Source: Deferrisoma camini S3R1 (lineage in GTDB: Bacteria > Desulfobacterota > Deferrisomatia > Deferrisomatales > Deferrisomataceae). Taken from it: 64,000 nt of DNA. Shown in pieces: positions 5,256 to 63,405 of this stretch; within the stretch, counting starts at the first letter, position 1; each line of letters starts with the position of its first letter. The stretch is from the NCBI RefSeq assembly GCF_000526155.1, contig NZ_JAFN01000001.1, positions 3,164,264-3,228,263 on the forward strand. Reading direction: 5' to 3'. The notes beneath the pieces were generated by a model. It had not been told where the DNA came from. It saw only the letters and a program-made list of their open reading frames with translations, and did not search any database. The translations under genes and the position numbers were made by a program.

Positions 5256-5441
5256 GGGGCAAGGGACCTGCCTCCGGCCGGGCGCGAAGCCGGGCATGAG
5301 ATTCGCCGCGCAGGCATGGGACCGAAGAGCTGGTTTCATGACAACTCGGTGGAATCCGAACCATTTCGCGGTCCGAGCGTCAGAGGCGCTGCGCGGCGAG
5401 CTAAGGGGCCGCACCCGGCTCTCCGGCAGGTCCCTTGCCCC
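5256..5441. repeat. structured intergenic repeat, copy A (perfect 17-bp inverted ends)
   Basis: 186-bp element whose left end GGGGCAAGGGACCTGCC (5256-5272) is perfectly complementary to the right end (5425-5441). An inner stem pairs 5278-5286 with 5410-5418. The interior shares long stretches with copies at 16305-16490 and 40327-40512 and less with 24609-24794. It fills most of the 347-bp spacer between the pentapeptide gene and the atp terminator. No ORF of substance is inside. Confidence 0.75.
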
Positions 5442-11508: not shown

Positions 11509-11757
11509 CTACACGACGAAGATCAGGAGCAGCGCGACGACCAGGGCGTAGATGCCGGTGGACTCGGACACGGCCTGGCCCACCAGCATGGTGCGGGTCA
11601 GGAGGTTGGCGTGCTCCGGGGCCCGGGCGATGCCCTCGCAGGCCTTGCCGGCAGCGAACCCCTCGCCGATGCCGGGGCCGATGGCGCCGAACCCCATGGC
11701 GATGCCGGCGCCGAGGAGGGCTGCGGCTCGGACCAGGTCTGCTCCGGTGATGTCCAT
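11509..11757 (-). CDS. atpE: ATP synthase F0 subunit c (single hairpin)
   Basis: 82-residue proteolipid: two membrane helices joined by a polar loop ([12 protein letters not shown]). The ion-binding carboxylate is E65 in [12 protein letters not shown]32, V63, S66, T67 and Y70 also match the ligand set described for sodium-binding c subunits (Q/E32-V63-E65-S66-T67-Y70), so sodium coupling is possible; that is inference from residues only. AAAGGAG precedes the ATG. It lies 32 bp downstream of a second, fused c-type gene, so the ring may be built from two kinds of subunit. Confidence 0.93.
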
Positions 11758-11789
11758 GGGACGACTCCTTTCCTGGGTGAGGGTCCAGA

Positions 11790-12500
11790 TCATACGACGT
11801 ACAGGAGCACGAGGGCCACCACGAGCCCGTACACGCTGGTGGACTGGCTGACGGCCTGGCCCACCAGCATGGTACGCAGGATCAACGGCGCCCGGTCGGG
11901 CCGGCGGGCCGTGCCGTCGCAGGCGGCCGCGCCGGCGAACCCGGCTCCGATGCCCGGCCCGGTGGCCGAGACCCCGGCCGCGATGGCGGCGCCCAGGAGG
12001 GCCGCCGCCCCGGACAGGGTGAACTCCGGGGGCTGGGACCGGAACATGAGCAGGAACGCCACGAGCAGGGCGAAGATCGACGGGGTCTGGGCCACGGCCT
12101 GGGACACGAGCATGGTGGTGGTGATCCGGGCCGCCCGGGCGGGGTTGCGGCCGACCGCGGTGCAGGCTGCGGCCGAGGGCAGGCCCGAGCCGTACCCGGG
12201 GCCGAACGCGCCGGCGCCCATGCACAGGCCGGCGGAGAAAAGGGCCACGCCCCGGAGCAGGGGCCCGGAGTCCGGGCCGAACAGGAGGAGCAGGGCCACC
12301 ACCAGGGCGAAGATGCTGGCCGACTCGGCCACGGCCTGGCCCACCAGCATGGTGCGCAGGATCGTGGGGGCGGCCTGGGGTTGGCGGGCGATGGCCTCGG
12401 CGGCCCGGCCGGCGGTGAGGCCTTCGCCCAGGGCGGAGCCGACCGCGCCGAGCCCGATGCACAGGGCAGCGCCCGCGAAAGCGGCGAGGGAGAGGTCCAT
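11790..12500 (-). CDS. triple-hairpin ATP synthase c-type proteolipid
   Basis: 236 residues formed by three in-frame c-subunit hairpins (about residues 1-75, 80-155 and 160-236), hence six membrane helices. Each repeat keeps the GxGxG helix, the polar loop with Arg, and the MLVxQAV helix. Only repeat 1 keeps the ion-binding carboxylate (E59). The equivalent residues of repeats 2 and 3 are Q138 and Q219, checked codon by codon. The helix-1 acidic residue (E26) is likewise replaced, by S105 and A186. Multi-hairpin c subunits are known from archaeal A-type and eukaryal V-type enzymes and in duplicated form from Acetobacterium. It is 9 bp after atpB and 32 bp before atpE. Confidence 0.9.
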
Positions 12501-12509
12501 GGGCAGCGA

Positions 12510-13184
12510 CTACTCCTGGATGGCCACGGAGATGTAGGTGAGCGTGAGCATGGCGAACACGAACGCCTGGACCGTTCCCACGAACAGCCCGAAAAAGGCG
12601 TACAGGAACGGGGGGATCAGGACGTAGTGAACCAGCCGGGACACCACCGCGATGATGATGGCCCCGCCCATGATGTTTCCGTACAGGCGGAACGAGATGG
12701 ACACGACTTTGGCGAGTTCTCCGATCACATTGAGCGGGAACATGAAGAAGAACGGCTGGAAGTACTCCTTGACGTAGGCCTTCCACCCCTTGACCCGCAG
12801 GGCCGTGACGTGGGCCACCACGAAGCCGATGAGGCCGAGGCCGAGGGTGGTGTTCAGGTCCCGGGTAGGCTCCTGGAGAAGGGGCACCACCCCGATCCAG
12901 TTGGACACGAGGATGAACAGGAACAAGGTGGCGATGAAGGCGAAGTAACCGGGCCCGAGCTTCCCCAGGCTCTCGTCGACCAGGTCGCGGAAGGCCTCGA
13001 TCACGGACTCGACGGCGGCCTGGAACGGAGAGGGCACCAGGCCGGGCCGCCGGGCGGTCCAGACGCCCAGGGCCAGGAGCAGGATCATCACCAGCCAGGA
13101 CATGGCCAGGGTGACGGCGTTCAAGGTCACGGTCCGGCCGTTGACCGTGAACACCCAGTGGGGGATGGAGAGGATCTCTTCCAT
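12510..13184 (-). CDS. atpB: ATP synthase F0 subunit a
   Basis: 224-residue membrane protein with about five to six helices. The essential arginine is in the fourth-helix motif [13 protein letters not shown], and the C-terminal helix [19 protein letters not shown] is conserved. [25 protein letters not shown] is the family signature. It forms the ion half-channels against the c-ring. Immediately upstream, between it and atpI, the operon is interrupted by about 340 bp of dispersed repeat. Confidence 0.96.
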
Positions 13185-13189
13185 GTGAC

Positions 13190-13510
13190 CTCGGTCGTTG
13201 GTCGTCAGTCGTTGGTCGTCGGTCGGGGGCCTTCGGCCCGCTGGGCGGCTAGGCAGCTAGGCGGCCGGGCGGCTCTCGAACCGCGCCAGAGCTCGGGGCA
13301 TGGGGACCAGGGACCAGAATTCAGCGGACCGGAGACAGGAAAAACCACGGGCGTGCTCCTGCATCCGACGCTGGAACCTGTCCTCTGAATTCCGTTTTCT
13401 GGTTCCTGAACCGCAGGCCCCATGCCTCCGGCGTGAAGGCCCCGGACCAGCGGAAGTTACCCTTCCCCGTTGTACGGCCCCCCAGGGGCCTGATGGGGTT
13501 TCCACGGGAT
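13190..13510. repeat. mosaic repeat inside the atp operon, inverted relative to the 19.3-kb copy
   Basis: A 321-bp non-coding spacer between atpI and atpB. It consists of the GACCGAC/GACCAAC 7-bp tandem units, the GGGCCGAAGGCCC hairpin, the CCTAGC units, then a structured core (13295-13428) with GCATGGGG-type ends. An inner inverted repeat around GAATTCAG is present on both sides of the core. Its reverse complement is nearly identical to 19231-19515. Confidence 0.7.
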
Positions 13511-13526
13511 TCGTGCCCCCGCTGCA

Positions 13527-13850
13527 TCAGGTCCGGGTGGCGTCGAGGGCCAGGAGCGCGGTCGGGACCAGCAGGCCCACAGCGGCCGCGGCCAGCGCGG
13601 TCCGGGAAAAGGTAACCGCGACGGCGAGAAAGGCAAGCCGCAGGGCCGTGCGGGCGAGGGCACCGAGGGCCGCCCGCCGGCTCGCCGTTCGGGGATCGGG
13701 CGGCAGGCGCCGGGCCACGGCCGCATGGAGCAGCAGGGCCAGGGACCCGCCGAGCAGGCCCCAGGCCGCGCCGAGGGCCGCGTGGCCGCCGCCCAGGGCC
13801 CCCGCCGCGGCCACCGTGGCGAGACCGACCAGGGGCAGGCGACCGGTCAC
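13527..13850 (-). CDS. atpI: ATP synthase subunit I-like membrane protein
   Basis: 107 residues from GTG 13850, which overlaps the atpZ stop as GTGA. About four hydrophobic segments are visible (VGLATVAAAGALGGG, AAWGLLGGSLALLLHAAVA, TALRLAFLAVAVTFS, ALAAAAVGLLVPTALLAL). Subunit I proteins assist c-ring assembly and are poorly conserved. The assignment rests on size, topology and position between atpZ and atpB. The stop codon is followed directly by repeat sequence. Confidence 0.7.
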   Translation of the reverse strand: MTGRLPLVGLATVAAAGALGGGHAALGAAWGLLGGSLALLLHAAVARRLPPDPRTASRRAALGALARTALRLAFLAVAVTFSRTALAAAAVGLLVPTALLALDATRT

Positions 13851-16119: not shown

Positions 16120-16589
16120 CCCATGCGGAGAGTCTCGGTCCGAGCTTTGGCGCGGTTCGAGAGCCGCCTAGCGGACCGAAGGCCCCCGACCGACGACCGT
16201 TGACCGTAGACCGACGACCGAAGTTACTGGGAACCCCTTCGGCCGCTGCGCGACCCTACAACGGAGAAGGGTGACGTGCGTTGGTCCGGGCCATTGCCGG
16301 CGGCGGGCATGGGGCCTGCTTCCGGCCGCGCGCGAAGCCGGACATTGAGATTCGCCGCGCAGGCAAGGGGCACCGGCGGTGGCCCCATGACCGTTCGACG
16401 GGACCCGAACGAACTCACGGTGCGAGCGTTGGAGGCGCTGCGCGGCGAGCCAAGGAGCCGCGCGCGGCTCTCCAGCAGCCCCCTTGCCCCCGACCGTGAT
16501 AGTGATAACAAAGAGGCGTGCTGGCACTTAGAACGCTGGGAAACCATAGGGGTTTTTTAAGCCTCCTGGCATCCCAGCCTCCTAGCGTC
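16120..16589. repeat. mosaic repeat with structured copy B (16305-16490)
   Basis: Non-coding stretch between parS site 1 and rsmG. In order it holds the GCGCGGTTCGAGAGCCG and GACCGAC tandem flank (16144-16225) and the ACAACGG...CGTTGG linker (16258-16288). Copy B follows, with ends GGGCATGGGGCCTGC and its imperfect complement. The CCTAGC units near 16570 run into the 3' end of rsmG. The interior of copy B is closely similar to copies A and D. Confidence 0.7.
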
Positions 16590-17225
16590 CTAGCGGGCCG
16601 AAGGCCCCAGACCACCCCGGTACACGAGCAGCGATCGGGGACCCAGGCCGGGCAGGCGGGGGAGGTCCCGGCGGGCCACCAGGACCCAGCCGGGCGGCTG
16701 GATCGCCGGCTCGCCGGCGCGGGGCAGCACCACCGCGCCGCCCGGGGCGAGGAACGGGGCGGCCAGAAGAAGGGCGGCCTCGATGTCGGCCACGGCGCGG
16801 GCCGTTACGGTGCGGAAGGCCGCTGCGAGCTCCGGGTGCGGCTCGAGGATCTCGGGGGCCCGACCCTGGAACACGGTGACGTTCGGCAGGCGGAGGACGC
16901 GGGCGGCGTGGCGGGCGAAGGCGACCCGCTTCGATCGGGGTTCGAGCCCGGTGCAGGCGAGTTGGGGGTGCACCAGGGAAACCGGCAGCAGGGGAAGACC
17001 GGGGCCGGTGCCGATGTCGAGAAAGGGGCCTTCCGGCGGCTCTGGGAGAAACGGGAGCAGGGCGTCCGCGATCTGCAACCGGACCCCCTCGAGGGTTCGG
17101 GGGCCCACGAGCCGGATGCGCCGGTTCCAGCGGTGGAGCTCGGCCGCTAGGGCCTCGAGCTTCTCCCACGGGAGGTCGGGGCGGACCGCCCGAAGGGGGG
17201 CCCAGGGGTCAGGGGCCGCCGGCAT
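16590..17225 (-). CDS. rsmG: 16S rRNA (guanine-N7) methyltransferase RsmG
   Basis: 211-residue GidB-family SAM-dependent methyltransferase acting on G527 of 16S rRNA. The SAM motif is FLDIGTGPGLPLLP, followed by LEPRSKRVAFARH. It lies 3 bp after mnmG, the usual pair. The last residues (GLGPSAR) and the stop codon are encoded by the dispersed flank repeat GGGCCGAAGGCCC...CTAG, so the original C-terminus may have been replaced or extended when the repeat arrived. Confidence 0.93.
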   Translation of the reverse strand: MPAAPDPWAPLRAVRPDLPWEKLEALAAELHRWNRRIRLVGPRTLEGVRLQIADALLPFLPEPPEGPFLDIGTGPGLPLLPVSLVHPQLACTGLEPRSKRVAFARHAARVLRLPNVTVFQGRAPEILEPHPELAAAFRTVTARAVADIEAALLLAAPFLAPGGAVVLPRAGEPAIQPPGWVLVARRDLPRLPGLGPRSLLVYRGGLGPSAR

Positions 17226-19140: not shown

Positions 19141-19230
19141 TCGGTCTTCGGTCGACGGTCGAAAAGTGATGTCTCGCCGGTACGGCCGAGCCCGCTATAC
19201 CATCCAACGGAAAGCCCCATCAGGCCCCTA

Positions 19231-19515
19231 CGGGGCCGGGCAACGGGGAAGGGTGACTTTCGTTGGTCCGGGGTTTTCTCGCCGGAGGCATGGGGCCTAC
19301 GGTTCAGGAGTCAGAAGACGGAATTCAGAGGACAGGTTCCAGCGTCGGATGCAGGAGCACACCTGTGGTTTTTCCTGCCTCCGGTCCGCTGAATTCTGGT
19401 CCCTGAAACCATGCCCCGAGCTCTGGCGCGGTTCGAGAGCCGTCCGGCCGCCTAGCTGCCTAGCCGTCCAGCGGGCCGAAGGCCCCCGACCGACGACCAA
19501 CGACCGAAGTTACAG
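19231..19515. repeat. mosaic repeat with structured copy G (19284-19419)
   Basis: Fills the mnmE-mnmG gap. It has the linker with CAACG...CGTTG, then a core bounded by GGCATGGGGCC and its near complement. Inside the core GAATTCAGAGGAC (19321-19333) faces GTCCGCTGAATTC. The flank of CCTAGC units, GGGCCGAAGGCCC and GACCGAC 7-mers runs to 19515. It is the inverted near-twin of the copy inside the atp operon. Confidence 0.72.
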
Positions 19516-23274: not shown

Positions 23275-24487
23275 GGCCGATCTCGAAACGGTTTCGGAAA
23301 TGCGGAACCCTACGGCAGATTCCGTCCCGGCGTCAAGCCCCTTTTCCGCCCGGTCCGCGTACGTGCACGTGCCGTTCTGCCGGAGCCGATGTCGCTACTG
23401 CGCCTTCTACTCAGGCGAGTCCCCCGACCTGCGCGACGCGTACCTGCGCGGGGTGGAGGCCGAGGTGCACGCCTGGGGCGCCGGCGGCGGCGCCCTGGAC
23501 ACGGTGTACGTGGGGGGCGGCACGCCCCCCACCCTGGGCGCGGCCGGCCTGGGCCGGATCGTGGATGCTCTGGCCCGGGTCCGGGGCCTCGCCCGGGGCG
23601 CGGAGCTCACCGTGGAGGTGAACCCGGCGCAGGGGCTCCGGCTGGCCGACCTGCGGGCGATCGGGTTCACCCGGGTCTCGGTGGGGGTCCAGGCCCTGGA
23701 CGAGGGATGGCTGGCCCGCCTCGGCCGGCGGCACGGCCCGGGTGGGGCCCTGGCCTGCCTGGAGGCGTGCCGGCGGGCCGGGTTCGCCTCGGTGTCGGCC
23801 GACCTCATCCTGGGCCTGCCGGGGTTGGACCCGGCGGCCGCGGCCGACTGGGCCGGAGAGTGCGTGGCGGCCGGGGCCGACCATCTCTCGGTGTACCTCC
23901 TGGAGATCCACCCCGGCACCCCCCTTGCCCGCGACGCGGCCGCCGGTCGGTTCCGGCCGGCCTCGGCCGAAGAGACCGTGGCCCAGTGGGAGGCGGTGGC
24001 CGAGCGGCTCGAACTCCTGGGTCTCTCTGCCTACGAGGTGTCGAACTTCGCCCGCCCGGAGGCCCGGTGCCGCCACAACCAACGCTACTGGGCCCAGGAA
24101 GCCTACCGCGGCCTCGGGCCCGGGGCCCACAGCTTCGACCCCGGCGCCGGGCCGTGGGGGACGCGGTGGGAGAACCGGCCGGACCTGAGGGCGTGGGCCC
24201 GGGCCGTGGGGGCCGGCCGGGTTCCGCCCCAGAGGGTGGATCGCCGCACCCGGGACGGCGCGCTCCTGGAGACCCTGTTCCTGTGGGCCCGGCGCCCCGC
24301 TCCCTGGCCCGGGGAGGCCCTGGCAGCTCTGGGGGTGGAAGCCTTGCGGGCCGAGCCCCTGCTCGCCGACCTGGAGGCGGCCGGCGACCTGGCCCCCTCG
24401 GGCCGGCCCACGCGCCAGGGCATGCTGCGGGCCGACGGCATCGCCCGGTGGCTGTGGGAGCGGCTCAAGAGCCGCCCGGCCGCCTAG
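23273..24487 (+). CDS. hemW: radical SAM HemW (coproporphyrinogen III oxidase-like)
   Basis: 404 residues. The radical SAM cluster motif is C36-x3-C40-x2-C43 in VPFCRSRCRYC, followed by YVGGGTPPTL and a SVGVQALDEGWLARLGR segment typical of HemW/HemN. The C-terminal HemN domain is present (RHNQRYWAQEAYRGLGPGAHSF). HemW inserts heme into respiratory proteins rather than oxidising coproporphyrinogen. ATG 23273 has no good ribosome site; ATG 23300 is possible. The last codons and stop (RPAA) lie in the dispersed flank repeat. Confidence 0.88.
   Translation: MADLETVSEMRNPTADSVPASSPFSARSAYVHVPFCRSRCRYCAFYSGESPDLRDAYLRGVEAEVHAWGAGGGALDTVYVGGGTPPTLGAAGLGRIVDALARVRGLARGAELTVEVNPAQGLRLADLRAIGFTRVSVGVQALDEGWLARLGRRHGPGGALACLEACRRAGFASVSADLILGLPGLDPAAAADWAGECVAAGADHLSVYLLEIHPGTPLARDAAAGRFRPASAEETVAQWEAVAERLELLGLSAYEVSNFARPEARCRHNQRYWAQEAYRGLGPGAHSFDPGAGPWGTRWENRPDLRAWARAVGAGRVPPQRVDRRTRDGALLETLFLWARRPAPWPGEALAALGVEALRAEPLLADLEAAGDLAPSGRPTRQGMLRADGIARWLWERLKSRPAA
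23307..23336 (-). promoter_or_regulatory. candidate promoter of the rpmH-rnpA-yidD-yidC operon
   Basis: On the minus strand TTGACG (23331-23336) and TAGGGT (23307-23312) are 18 bp apart. Transcription would start near 23300, so ATG 23274, the proposed rnpA start, would be in the leader of the mRNA. The boxes overlap the 5' end of hemW on the other strand. Confidence 0.55.
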
Positions 24488-24900
24488 CGGGCCGAAGGCC
24501 CCCGACCAACGACCAACGACCGAAGTCACCGGGAGGCCTCGTCAGGCCCCTGCGGGGCCGTACAACGGGCAAGGGTAACTTCCGTTGGTCCGGGGCCTTT
24601 ACGCCGGAGGCATGGGGCCTGCTTCCGGCCGTGCGCGAGTGCAGCATCCGATCGCCGCGCCTTCGCATGCCGTTGCCGGAGCAGGCTGTTCGGGCGGCGA
24701 CAGCGGAGGGCCCTGGAATTCGACGAAGCTACAGATGTTCGGGGGGCGCGGCGAGCCAAGGAGCCGCGCCCGGCTCTCCAGCAGACCCCATGCCCCACCG
24801 AGCGTTTGGCGGCGGTTCGGGGAAGCGGCCCGGCCGCCTAGCAGCCCAGCTGCCTAGCGGGCCGAAGGCCCCCGACCAACGACCGCAGGTTCCCCGTTCC
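24488..24900. repeat. mosaic repeat with structured copy C (24609-24794)
   Basis: About 410 bp without a gene between hemW and the hrcA promoter. It starts with GGGCCGAAGGCCC and GACCAAC units, then the linker with CAACGG...CCGTTG (24565-24589). Copy C follows, with ends GGCATGGGGCCTGC and its near-complement. Its interior differs from copies A, B and D in the left-centre and shares that part with 57077-57130. A second flank (24826-24895) closes the spacer. Confidence 0.7.
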
Positions 24901-39488: not shown

Positions 39489-40156
39489 TCTTCTTCCCCT
39501 TGGCCCTGGTGTTCGCCCTGGTGCTGTTCCTCCTGGGCCTGTTCGTGCTGGCCTTGGTCCAGGTGGGGCTGATCGGGGCGGCGTTCGCCAAGCTGGGGCT
39601 CCCGCCCCAGGCCGTGCCCCTGGTGCTCTTGGGCAGCCTGTTGGGCAGCGGGATCAACATCCCGGTGCGGCGGATCCAGGCCCCGGCCCGGCCGGTCCAG
39701 CTGGACCTGCTGGCCCTGGGGTTCCGGTTCCGGTTCCCGGGGCTGCCCCTGCGCCAGGAGACCGTGCTGGCCGTCAACCTGGGCGGGGCCGTGATCCCCA
39801 CCCTGGTGTCCCTGTACCTCCTGGGCCGGGCCGGGTCGCCCTGGGGGTACCTGGCGGCCACGGCCGCCGTGACCTGGGTGGTCCACCGGTTCGCCCGGCC
39901 GGTGCCGGGGTTCGGCATCGCGGTGCCCCTGCTCGTGCCCCCGGCCGCGGCCGCGATCGCGGCCCTCTTGTTCAGCCCGGCCGAGGCCGGCCCGGCGGCC
40001 TACGTGGCCGGCACCCTGGGGTGCCTGCTCGGCGCGGATCTGCTGAACCTCCCCAAGATCGCCCGCCTGGGCGCGCCGGTGGCCTCCATCGGCGGCGCCG
40101 GCACCTTCGACGGGGTGTTCCTCTCGGGCGTGATCGCCGTGTTCCTGGCGGGCTGA
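39485..40156 (+). CDS. DUF1614 multi-spanning membrane protein
   Basis: 223 residues from GTG 39485. About six hydrophobic segments, the first being FFPLALVFALVLFLLGLFVLAL. The pattern LLGSLLGSGINIPV and the end GAPVASIGGAGTFDGVFLSGVIAVFL are typical of DUF1614. Its last 27 codons are duplicated 13.93 kb away at 54006. Function is unknown; members are common next to cytochrome or methanogen-type genes. Confidence 0.85.
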   Translation: MIFFPLALVFALVLFLLGLFVLALVQVGLIGAAFAKLGLPPQAVPLVLLGSLLGSGINIPVRRIQAPARPVQLDLLALGFRFRFPGLPLRQETVLAVNLGGAVIPTLVSLYLLGRAGSPWGYLAATAAVTWVVHRFARPVPGFGIAVPLLVPPAAAAIAALLFSPAEAGPAAYVAGTLGCLLGADLLNLPKIARLGAPVASIGGAGTFDGVFLSGVIAVFLAG

Positions 40157-40180
40157 CGGCCCGGCCGGCTCCTCCCCCCC
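40076..40180 (+). repeat. left copy of a 105-bp direct repeat (putative attachment or duplication site)
   Basis: Matches 54006-54110 at 104 of 105 positions; the single difference (40138 C versus 54068 G) is synonymous in the DUF1614 gene. It covers the last 81 bp of that gene and 24 bp beyond. The two copies bracket the whole catabolic block. Confidence 0.9.
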
Positions 40181-40326: not shown

Positions 40327-40512
40327 GGGGCATGGGGTCCGCTTCCGGCCGCGCGCGAAGCCGGGCATGAGATTCGCCGCGCAGGCACGGGGCACCAACG
40401 GTGGTTTCATGGCAGTCCGGCCGGGGACCGAACGGTTCACGGTGCGAGCGTTGGAGGCGCTGCGCGGCGAGCCAAGGAGCCGCACGCGGCTCTCCAGCAG
40501 ACCCCATGCCCC
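40327..40512. repeat. structured intergenic repeat, copy D
   Basis: Ends GGGGCATGGGGTCCGC (40327-40342) and its complement at 40497-40512 with one C/A mismatch. The interior is closely similar to copies A and B. It lies in the 760-bp spacer after DUF1614 and is flanked by CCTAGC units near 40585-40615. Confidence 0.75.
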
Positions 40513-53971: not shown

Positions 53972-54005
53972 TCGGGAGAAAGGGCTTTCGCGGAACTCGG
54001 ATGCA

Positions 54006-54110
54006 CCGGTGGCCTCCATCGGCGGCGCCGGCACCTTCGACGGGGTGTTCCTCTCGGGCGTGATCGCGGTGTTCCTGGCGGGCTGACGGCCCGGCCGGCT
54101 CCTCCCCCCC
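54006..54110 (+). pseudogene. orphan 3' end of the DUF1614 gene (right copy of the 105-bp direct repeat)
   Basis: Encodes the last 26 residues of DUF1614 with its stop codon and 24 bp of downstream sequence, without the rest of the gene. It matches 40076-40180 at 104 of 105 bases. It lies 35 bp after the second KAS III-like gene. Confidence 0.9.
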
Positions 54111-58312: not shown

Positions 58313-58443
58313 CGGTTCAGGGCTCCGGTAGTTCCAGCAGGAACCGCCACGCGGGGACCACATCCACCCGACCGGCGTCGGTGCCCACGCGCTCCTCCTG
58401 GGTGCGGGTCACCACCAGACCCCGGGAGATTCCTTGCTCCTTC
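58313..58443 (-). repeat. 131-bp direct repeat, left copy; C-terminal gene fragment on the minus strand
   Basis: About 93 percent identical to 63275-63405. On the minus strand both copies encode the end of one protein (KEQGISRGLVVTRTQEER, then VDVVPAWRFLLELPEP and a stop). The upstream sequences are unrelated, so both are truncated remains. The family is not certain; the end resembles that of some AAA ATPases with DUF4143. Confidence 0.7.
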
Positions 58444-63274: not shown

Positions 63275-63405
63275 CGGTTCAGGACTCCGGCGGTTCCAGC
63301 AGGAACCGCCACGCGGGGATCACATCCACCCGACCGGCGTCGGGGTCCACGCGTTCCTCCTGGGTGCGGGTCACCACCGGACCCCGGGAGATTCCTTGTT
63401 CCTTC
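63275..63405 (-). repeat. 131-bp direct repeat, right copy
   Basis: Counterpart of 58313-58443 with about nine substitutions. On the minus strand it encodes KEQGISRGPVVTRTQEER and VDVIPAWRFLLEPPES with a stop. Upstream coding sequence is again missing. Together the two copies frame 4.8 kb that includes the helicase. Confidence 0.7.

Follow-up and report, generated by a model that had tools for sequence, protein, structure and literature searches.

A modular repeat unit between atpI and atpB of Deferrisoma camini, one copy of a probably mobile, non-coding repeat family

In Deferrisoma camini S3R1 one repeat unit fills nearly all of the spacer between atpI and atpB, and we have analyzed what this unit is and how it came to lie there. 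The window referred to below is the whole stretch of 64,000 nucleotides that contains the unit; it extends from position 3164264 to position 3228263 of the contig. The wider question addressed is how small non-coding repeats spread without genes of their own, and why operons tolerate them. Our best explanation, which taken as a whole we consider probable, is that the genus has a very abundant family of mobile, modular repeats without coding function, of which positions 13184-13499 of the window are one member.

The unit in the atp operon and its inverted twin

The host genome is a single contig of 4.24 Mb, with a G+C content of 69% in the sampled DNA. The genes flanking the unit encode AtpB (PF00119) and AtpI (PF03899), and those flanking a second copy encode MnmG and MnmE. 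The order of parts in the unit is an outer A arm, GCATGGGG, an interior cassette, CCCCATGC and an outer B arm. The features of the two sites are as follows.

12510-13184, minus strand: atpB; its ATG straddles the end of the A arm (native GTG-GAA start in two relatives)
13179-13183: 5-bp direct repeat TTCCA, copy 1 (TGGAA on the atp strand)
13184-13499, plus strand: unit A-core2-B, 316 bp, probably inserted; absent from the congener G001 (L083)
13185-13290, plus strand: A arm, made of a heptamer array (GGTCGTT type), a hairpin, an octamer array (GGCNGCTA) and then CTCTCGAACCGCGCC..
13227-13239: A-arm hairpin GGGCCTTCGGCCC
13298-13425: core2 interior, with inverted ends GCATGGGG (13298-13305) and CCCCATGC (13418-13425)
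13317-13392: inverted repeat in the core2 heptamer arms, GAATTCAG (13317-13324) and CTGAATTC (13385-13392)
13433-13499, plus strand: B arm, ending GGCCCC..GGGGCCTGATGGGGT (hairpin)
13500-13504: 5-bp direct repeat TTCCA, copy 2
13527-13850, minus strand: atpI
19213-19514, minus strand: inverted twin, B-core2-A, between mnmG and mnmE; site occupied in both congeners

A preliminary description of this DNA had reported near-identical cores at 13295-13428 and 19284-19419 in opposite orientation. This is correct, and the likeness runs on through both arms, over about 300 bp at 92% (BLAST with 13190-13510 matched the twin at 92% identity over 299 bp, E 1.3e-118). As an inverted pair, the arms 13205-13303 and 19409-19507 are 97% complementary, and the arms 13308-13501 and 19212-19405 are 91% complementary. 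The outer end of the A arm is a heptamer array, with a lag-7 base identity of 0.71 (27 ends); an octamer array follows the GGGCCTTCGGCCC hairpin, and the lag-8 identity over the whole of A is 0.46. The arms of core2 are also heptameric, with lag-7 identities of 0.49 and 0.51 against 0.26 in shuffled core2; shuffled controls for the A ends and core2 arms lie between 0.26 and 0.29. The centres of core2 vary from copy to copy. The outer ends are not terminal inverted repeats such as MITEs have, the A end GTAACTTCGGTC and the B end (G/A)CCCC..TCAGGCCCC being unrelated by inspection.

In G001 the operon (contig L083, equal to G001:C92) is 94.5% identical to that of the window and has no unit between atpI and atpB; the empty site reads ..GGTGGAAGAGATCC... 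Alignment of the window with this contig leaves a gap of 316 bases in the window and an overlap of 5 bases in L083, which defines the insert as 13184-13499 and TTCCA as its direct repeat. The atpI-atpB gap is likewise short and element-free in a more distant Deferrisomatales MAG (L084). Since the site is empty in the congener and a 5-bp repeat flanks the 316 bp, the insertion appears lineage-specific, and the simplest reading is that the unit would have arrived between atpI and atpB as a block in this lineage. We looked for a relative with the same sequence at this place as ordinary spacer and found a relative without any such sequence there. The earlier statement that the element splits the operon is right as regards an insertion between atpI and atpB, and wrong if taken to mean a broken gene. 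On the atp strand 13179-13183 reads TGGAA, the TG that closes the atpB start codon followed by GAA. In both relatives (G001 and L084) atpB starts with GTG-GAA, and the window has ATG-GAA over the junction; if the repeat is taken as 5 bp, the A of this codon would come from the element.

A second unit, of the type A-core1-B (L054:14655-15007), is absent from both G001 and G002, the other congener. It has GGGAA on the B side and no clear duplicate on the A side, and the target duplication therefore rests on one site, that between atpI and atpB. At a further locus (L008) the A end meets ATGGAAG, and G001 has ATGGAGC there after 36 unrelated bases.

Two other features of the window may be mentioned here. 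On the minus strand at 11509-12500, a 236-aa ORF (11790-12500) can be read as three c-subunit-like hairpins in one chain, and a separate ORF with one c-like hairpin (11509-11757) comes after it; both are marked by four repeats of 79 nt. These may be fused atpE copies. Further direct repeat pairs lie at 58313-58443 and 63275-63405 (93%) and at 40073-40180 and 54003-54110 (98%).

Size and distribution of the family

Copies were counted in the window and in 40 stretches of 20 kb spaced evenly over the same genome, 864 kb in all (about 20% of the genome). Models for nhmmer were built for A, B, core2 and core1, the last being the interior of the first family of repeats recognised in the window, and overlapping matches were removed. 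This sample contains 88 A, 57 core1, 29 core2 and 21 B modules, from which about 430 A, 280 core1, 140 core2 and 100 B are extrapolated for the genome; the modules make up about 2.2% of the sampled DNA. BLAST of 13190-13510 against the same genome gave at least 59 matching pieces, with 40 of 501 candidates scored. The A-arm hairpin pattern occurs 292 times with up to 3 mismatches, against 6 times for a reversed control; a strand pattern among the hairpin matches listed was set aside as a possible artefact of the listing. With genes taken from our own codon-based calls (799 in the sample), 191 of the 195 modules in the 864 kb are intergenic. Other copies in the window that include core1 are these.

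5264-5440, plus strand: core1 without recognised arms; the same copy is at this site in G001
16146-16644, minus strand: A-B-core1-A cluster with the same arms; first-family interior core1 at 16312-16489 (plus strand)
24457-24887, minus strand: A-B-core1-A cluster; G001 has a core2-type interior here
40336-40511, plus strand: core1 without recognised arms

Matches to 13190-13510 were obtained in 4 of 39 genomes: the host itself, G001 and G002 of the same genus and, weakly, G003 of the same family. The same four genomes were matched with core1 as query. Three copies in G003 (L240, L244 and L253) have a shortened middle with both core1 ends present, and B-arm matches occur there in 7 of 20 stretches that also have core1 matches (L236, L238, L239, L240, L241, L244 and L245). 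Searches for carriage of the repeats by plasmids and phages gave no match. No description of this repeat family was found in the open-access literature, nor anything that joins Deferrisomatales with repeats.

Elements of other kinds were met at several sites. A repeat of about 216-234 bp (ATATCAATTTGCGATC..) at L070:9529-9750 has many matches elsewhere in G001, and its site is empty in G001 and G002. A further type of outer end (TTGGTACTAATACC / GTTGCGTTCAAA) surrounds a core1-like interior at L061:2549-2876 and L020:1941-2204, each site being empty in one congener. In G001 at about 14367-14638 of L178, core1 lies within yet other outer ends (TTATTGACCCGGCG and like), and D. camini is without it there.

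Different interiors at orthologous sites

The preliminary description had suggested that one set of ends, common to the two families, may mobilise different interiors. The ends are indeed common, core1 sitting between the same GGGGCATGGGG/CCCCATGCCCC ends. Mixing of ends and interiors was followed in orthologous regions of G001 and G002, using only clusters with both flanks mapped; this gave 61 comparisons, 50 of them with a core in the D. camini copy, and two rows (L061:16377 against G001 and L070:3785 against G002) combine shared and changed parts. The same interior is retained in 22 of the 50 site-by-relative comparisons, one of which (L061:17399 against G001) rests on overlapping alignment blocks. 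The element is absent from the relative in 4, and other sequence occupies the site in 3. In 21 the relative has family modules with the core different or missing: 9 have a core of another family, 8 a core of the same label that does not align (among them L020 against G001, where the main core is shared and a second element is missing), and 4 an arm with another interior. Different interiors thus often lie within the same arms at orthologous sites of congeners.

Clean swaps, with both arms aligned, were found at three loci. L013 has core1 in D. camini and core2 in G001 and G002, between flanking blocks that are 100% and 98% identical to G001. L070:13157 and L070:15692 have core2 in D. camini and G001, and core1 in G002. 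At the mnmG-mnmE copy, compared with G001 over two flanks, the B arm is shared and the interior and A arm are different; in G002 again the B arm is shared and the interior and A arm are not, the G002 contig ending inside the element. The differing interiors and the three clean swaps support the notion of one set of ends with different interiors, both within the genome and between congeners. The part of the suggestion that makes the ends the mobiliser did not find such support, no cognate transposase having been found among the Y1-type ones examined.

Dispersal would be the work of an enzyme acting in trans. Among 12 Y1-type loci examined there is no transposase with matching ends; only L031 and L032 have A, B or core modules nearby, and the IS ends there are unlike A and B. 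A RAYT or IS200-like enzyme was rejected as the mobiliser because no matching ends lie nearby. Some of the Y1 genes are RAYT-like, L036 matching NF047646 at 64.4 bits (below the cut-off of 80). At the four loci of RAYT size (L036-L039) no A, B, core1 or core2 module lies within 1.5 kb, and no rayt gene flanked by inverted repeat copies was found. Loci L031-L034 are four identical copies of an IS200-like element of 616-618 bp. The RAYT-like genes L036, L039 and L042 have tandem repeats that read on the other strand as repeated DQRPEFP-like peptides, and L036 has a DnaA-like C-terminal match.

Two histories other than insertion followed by exchange have to be weighed. In one, atpI and atpB were already separated by the unit in the common ancestor, and the relatives have since lost it through recombination between the 5-bp repeats, as part of the ordinary indel turnover of old intergenic repeats. 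The direct repeat around the unit would permit a precise deletion, and the 22 comparisons with the same interior represent copies older than the species split; however, the unit is missing from G001 and the more distant L084 alike, and the GTG-GAA starts of both against the ATG-GAA across the junction in the window also speak against this history, so that we regard ancestral loss as very improbable. The other concerns the interiors, which on our reading would be swapped in place by ectopic recombination among the many copies via shared arms and palindromes. This is the simplest account of the swaps, since arms of 60-100 bp are shared by hundreds of copies. A recent gene conversion at L013 did not find support, there being no near-identical donor among the candidates scored: the best is 93% over 193 bp in D. 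camini (40 of 595 scored) and 92% in G001 (40 of 316 scored). A serious rival to ectopic recombination is that the cores are MITE-like transposons with palindromic ends of their own (GGGGCATGGGG in core1, TCAGG..CCTGA in core2) which nested into older A/B elements. Core1 often occurs without recognised arms, its ends are TIR-like, the short core1 forms of the sister genus G003 retain both ends around a reduced middle, and solitary elements containing core1 vary in presence between congeners (L061:2652, absent from G002, and two further sites). Against nesting, core1 always points the same way with respect to A and B in those complete units that were listed, arm sequence at L013 and L070:15692 is replaced along with the interior and not interrupted, and an A-B unit that lacks an interior and has one GGGGCATGCCCC was not seen among the units listed. 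We hold nested transposition of the cores to be a real but tentative possibility.

Orientation at gene starts and relation to known systems

The heptamer end of the A arm points towards a gene start in 63 of the 85 copies that have a gene on either side (p 7e-5). Between co-directional genes 51 heptamer ends face the start and 11 do not (p 2.8e-7), and the majority of these 51 are no more than 25 bp away from it. The heptamer ends of A arms are thus directed at gene starts far above chance. Of the 27 A ends sampled, 13 have GGAA in the adjoining 14 nt on the outside; the motif is present in 71 of 1092 14-mers drawn at random from intergenic DNA and in 100 of 770 14-mers upstream of starts. Outside B ends it is present at 9 of 20 only. 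The predicted unpaired probability at -45 to -1 is higher at 29 starts adjoining A than at 200 other intergenic starts (p 1e-4). This effect on accessibility is modest and may be due in part to lower G+C. Shine-Dalgarno frequency is the same next to A and in other starts (0.72 in each).

A target resembling GGAA(G), either as a Shine-Dalgarno sequence or as a Met-Glu start motif, could set the orientation of the unit, and the gene would then retain a usable start. Selection could be an alternative cause of the bias. The low-structure heptamer spacer might make the unit tolerable, and perhaps even useful, as a leader beside the start codon. Taken further, the units would be mobile cassettes anchored at start codons, inserting one way at the ribosome binding site or start, rebuilding the start, serving as low-structure leaders and exchanging interiors via shared palindromic ends. 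We regard this extended reading as doubtful; if true, it would give hundreds of genes of the genus shuffled leaders. A different reading of the same placement makes the units primarily conserved cis-regulatory RNA leaders (riboswitch-like or acting in translational control) that are mobile incidentally. Position and orientation beside start codons are as this would predict, the leader 13185-13526 on the minus strand has a folding z-score of -2.38, and heptamers at starts recall the TAACTGA arrays of Beggiatoaceae (PMC4679880). However, no match in the window reached the Rfam gathering score, covariation is slight, and the interiors frequently differ at the same gene, all of which makes a conserved leader unlikely. 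For core2 RNAalifold gave 10 pairs, which covariation on balance does not support, and for B it gave 4 pairs; the core2 arms have almost no covariation beyond fixed CAG/CTG, and a conserved RNA hairpin in core2 or B is thus unsupported. The preliminary description had also proposed that the copy between atpI and atpB could uncouple transcription. Scans for promoters and terminators gave nothing within the element: promoter-like sites were not found, and one terminator-like site lies outside it, at about chance frequency.

Heptamer repeats also constitute the STRR of cyanobacteria. Four further systems were compared from published accounts, and by analogy BOX and the TAACTGA heptamers appear to be the closest precedents; we do not claim membership in BOX, REP/BIME, TAACTGA or STAR. 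The BOX elements of Streptococcus pneumoniae and S. suis are described as short modular repeats of intergenic DNA, in which end modules enclose interior modules that can replace one another, often clustered and inserted into other repeats, and in S. suis the same boxB interiors lie between two end sets, boxA-C and boxE-F (PMC3049150). This is the nearest system in architecture, end modules around variable interior modules being present here too, and no relation in sequence is claimed. In contrast to BOX as so described, the outer ends here are not inverted repeats, the interiors are unrelated sequences and not multiples of one module, the A arms face gene starts, and interiors at the same site differ between congeners. 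REP/BIME with RAYT (PMC2817692) resemble our family as high-copy palindromic mosaics, and RAYT-like Y1 transposases are present in the genome; however, no head of GTAG type is found here, and the RAYT-size loci L036-L039 are without modules. Nearest in placement are the TAACTGA repeats of marine Beggiatoaceae, described as intergenic heptamer direct repeats, mostly of one orientation, that end a few bases before start codons (PMC4679880). Heptamer direct repeats lie just upstream of start codons here as well, but TAACTGA is absent from both strands of 13184-13499, the heptamers are within a larger mobile unit, and Shine-Dalgarno frequency does not depart from that of other genes. The STAR elements of staphylococci are interspersed intergenic repeats with variable spacers, whose authors report no frequent transfer of spacers between loci (PMC3532100), whereas here kinds of interior known from elsewhere appear at the same site. 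In this family a site-by-site comparison of congeneric genomes displays insertion and replacement of interiors directly, and the target of insertion, the capture of start codons and the exchange of cassettes are each open to test. Such mosaic repeats may help us to understand how short parasitic DNAs become diverse and remodel the leaders of genes. An expansion of a heptamer array was also seen at L070:11535-11604, where 68 extra bases of 7-base repeats (GGTGACG, CGACCTG) are present relative to G001.
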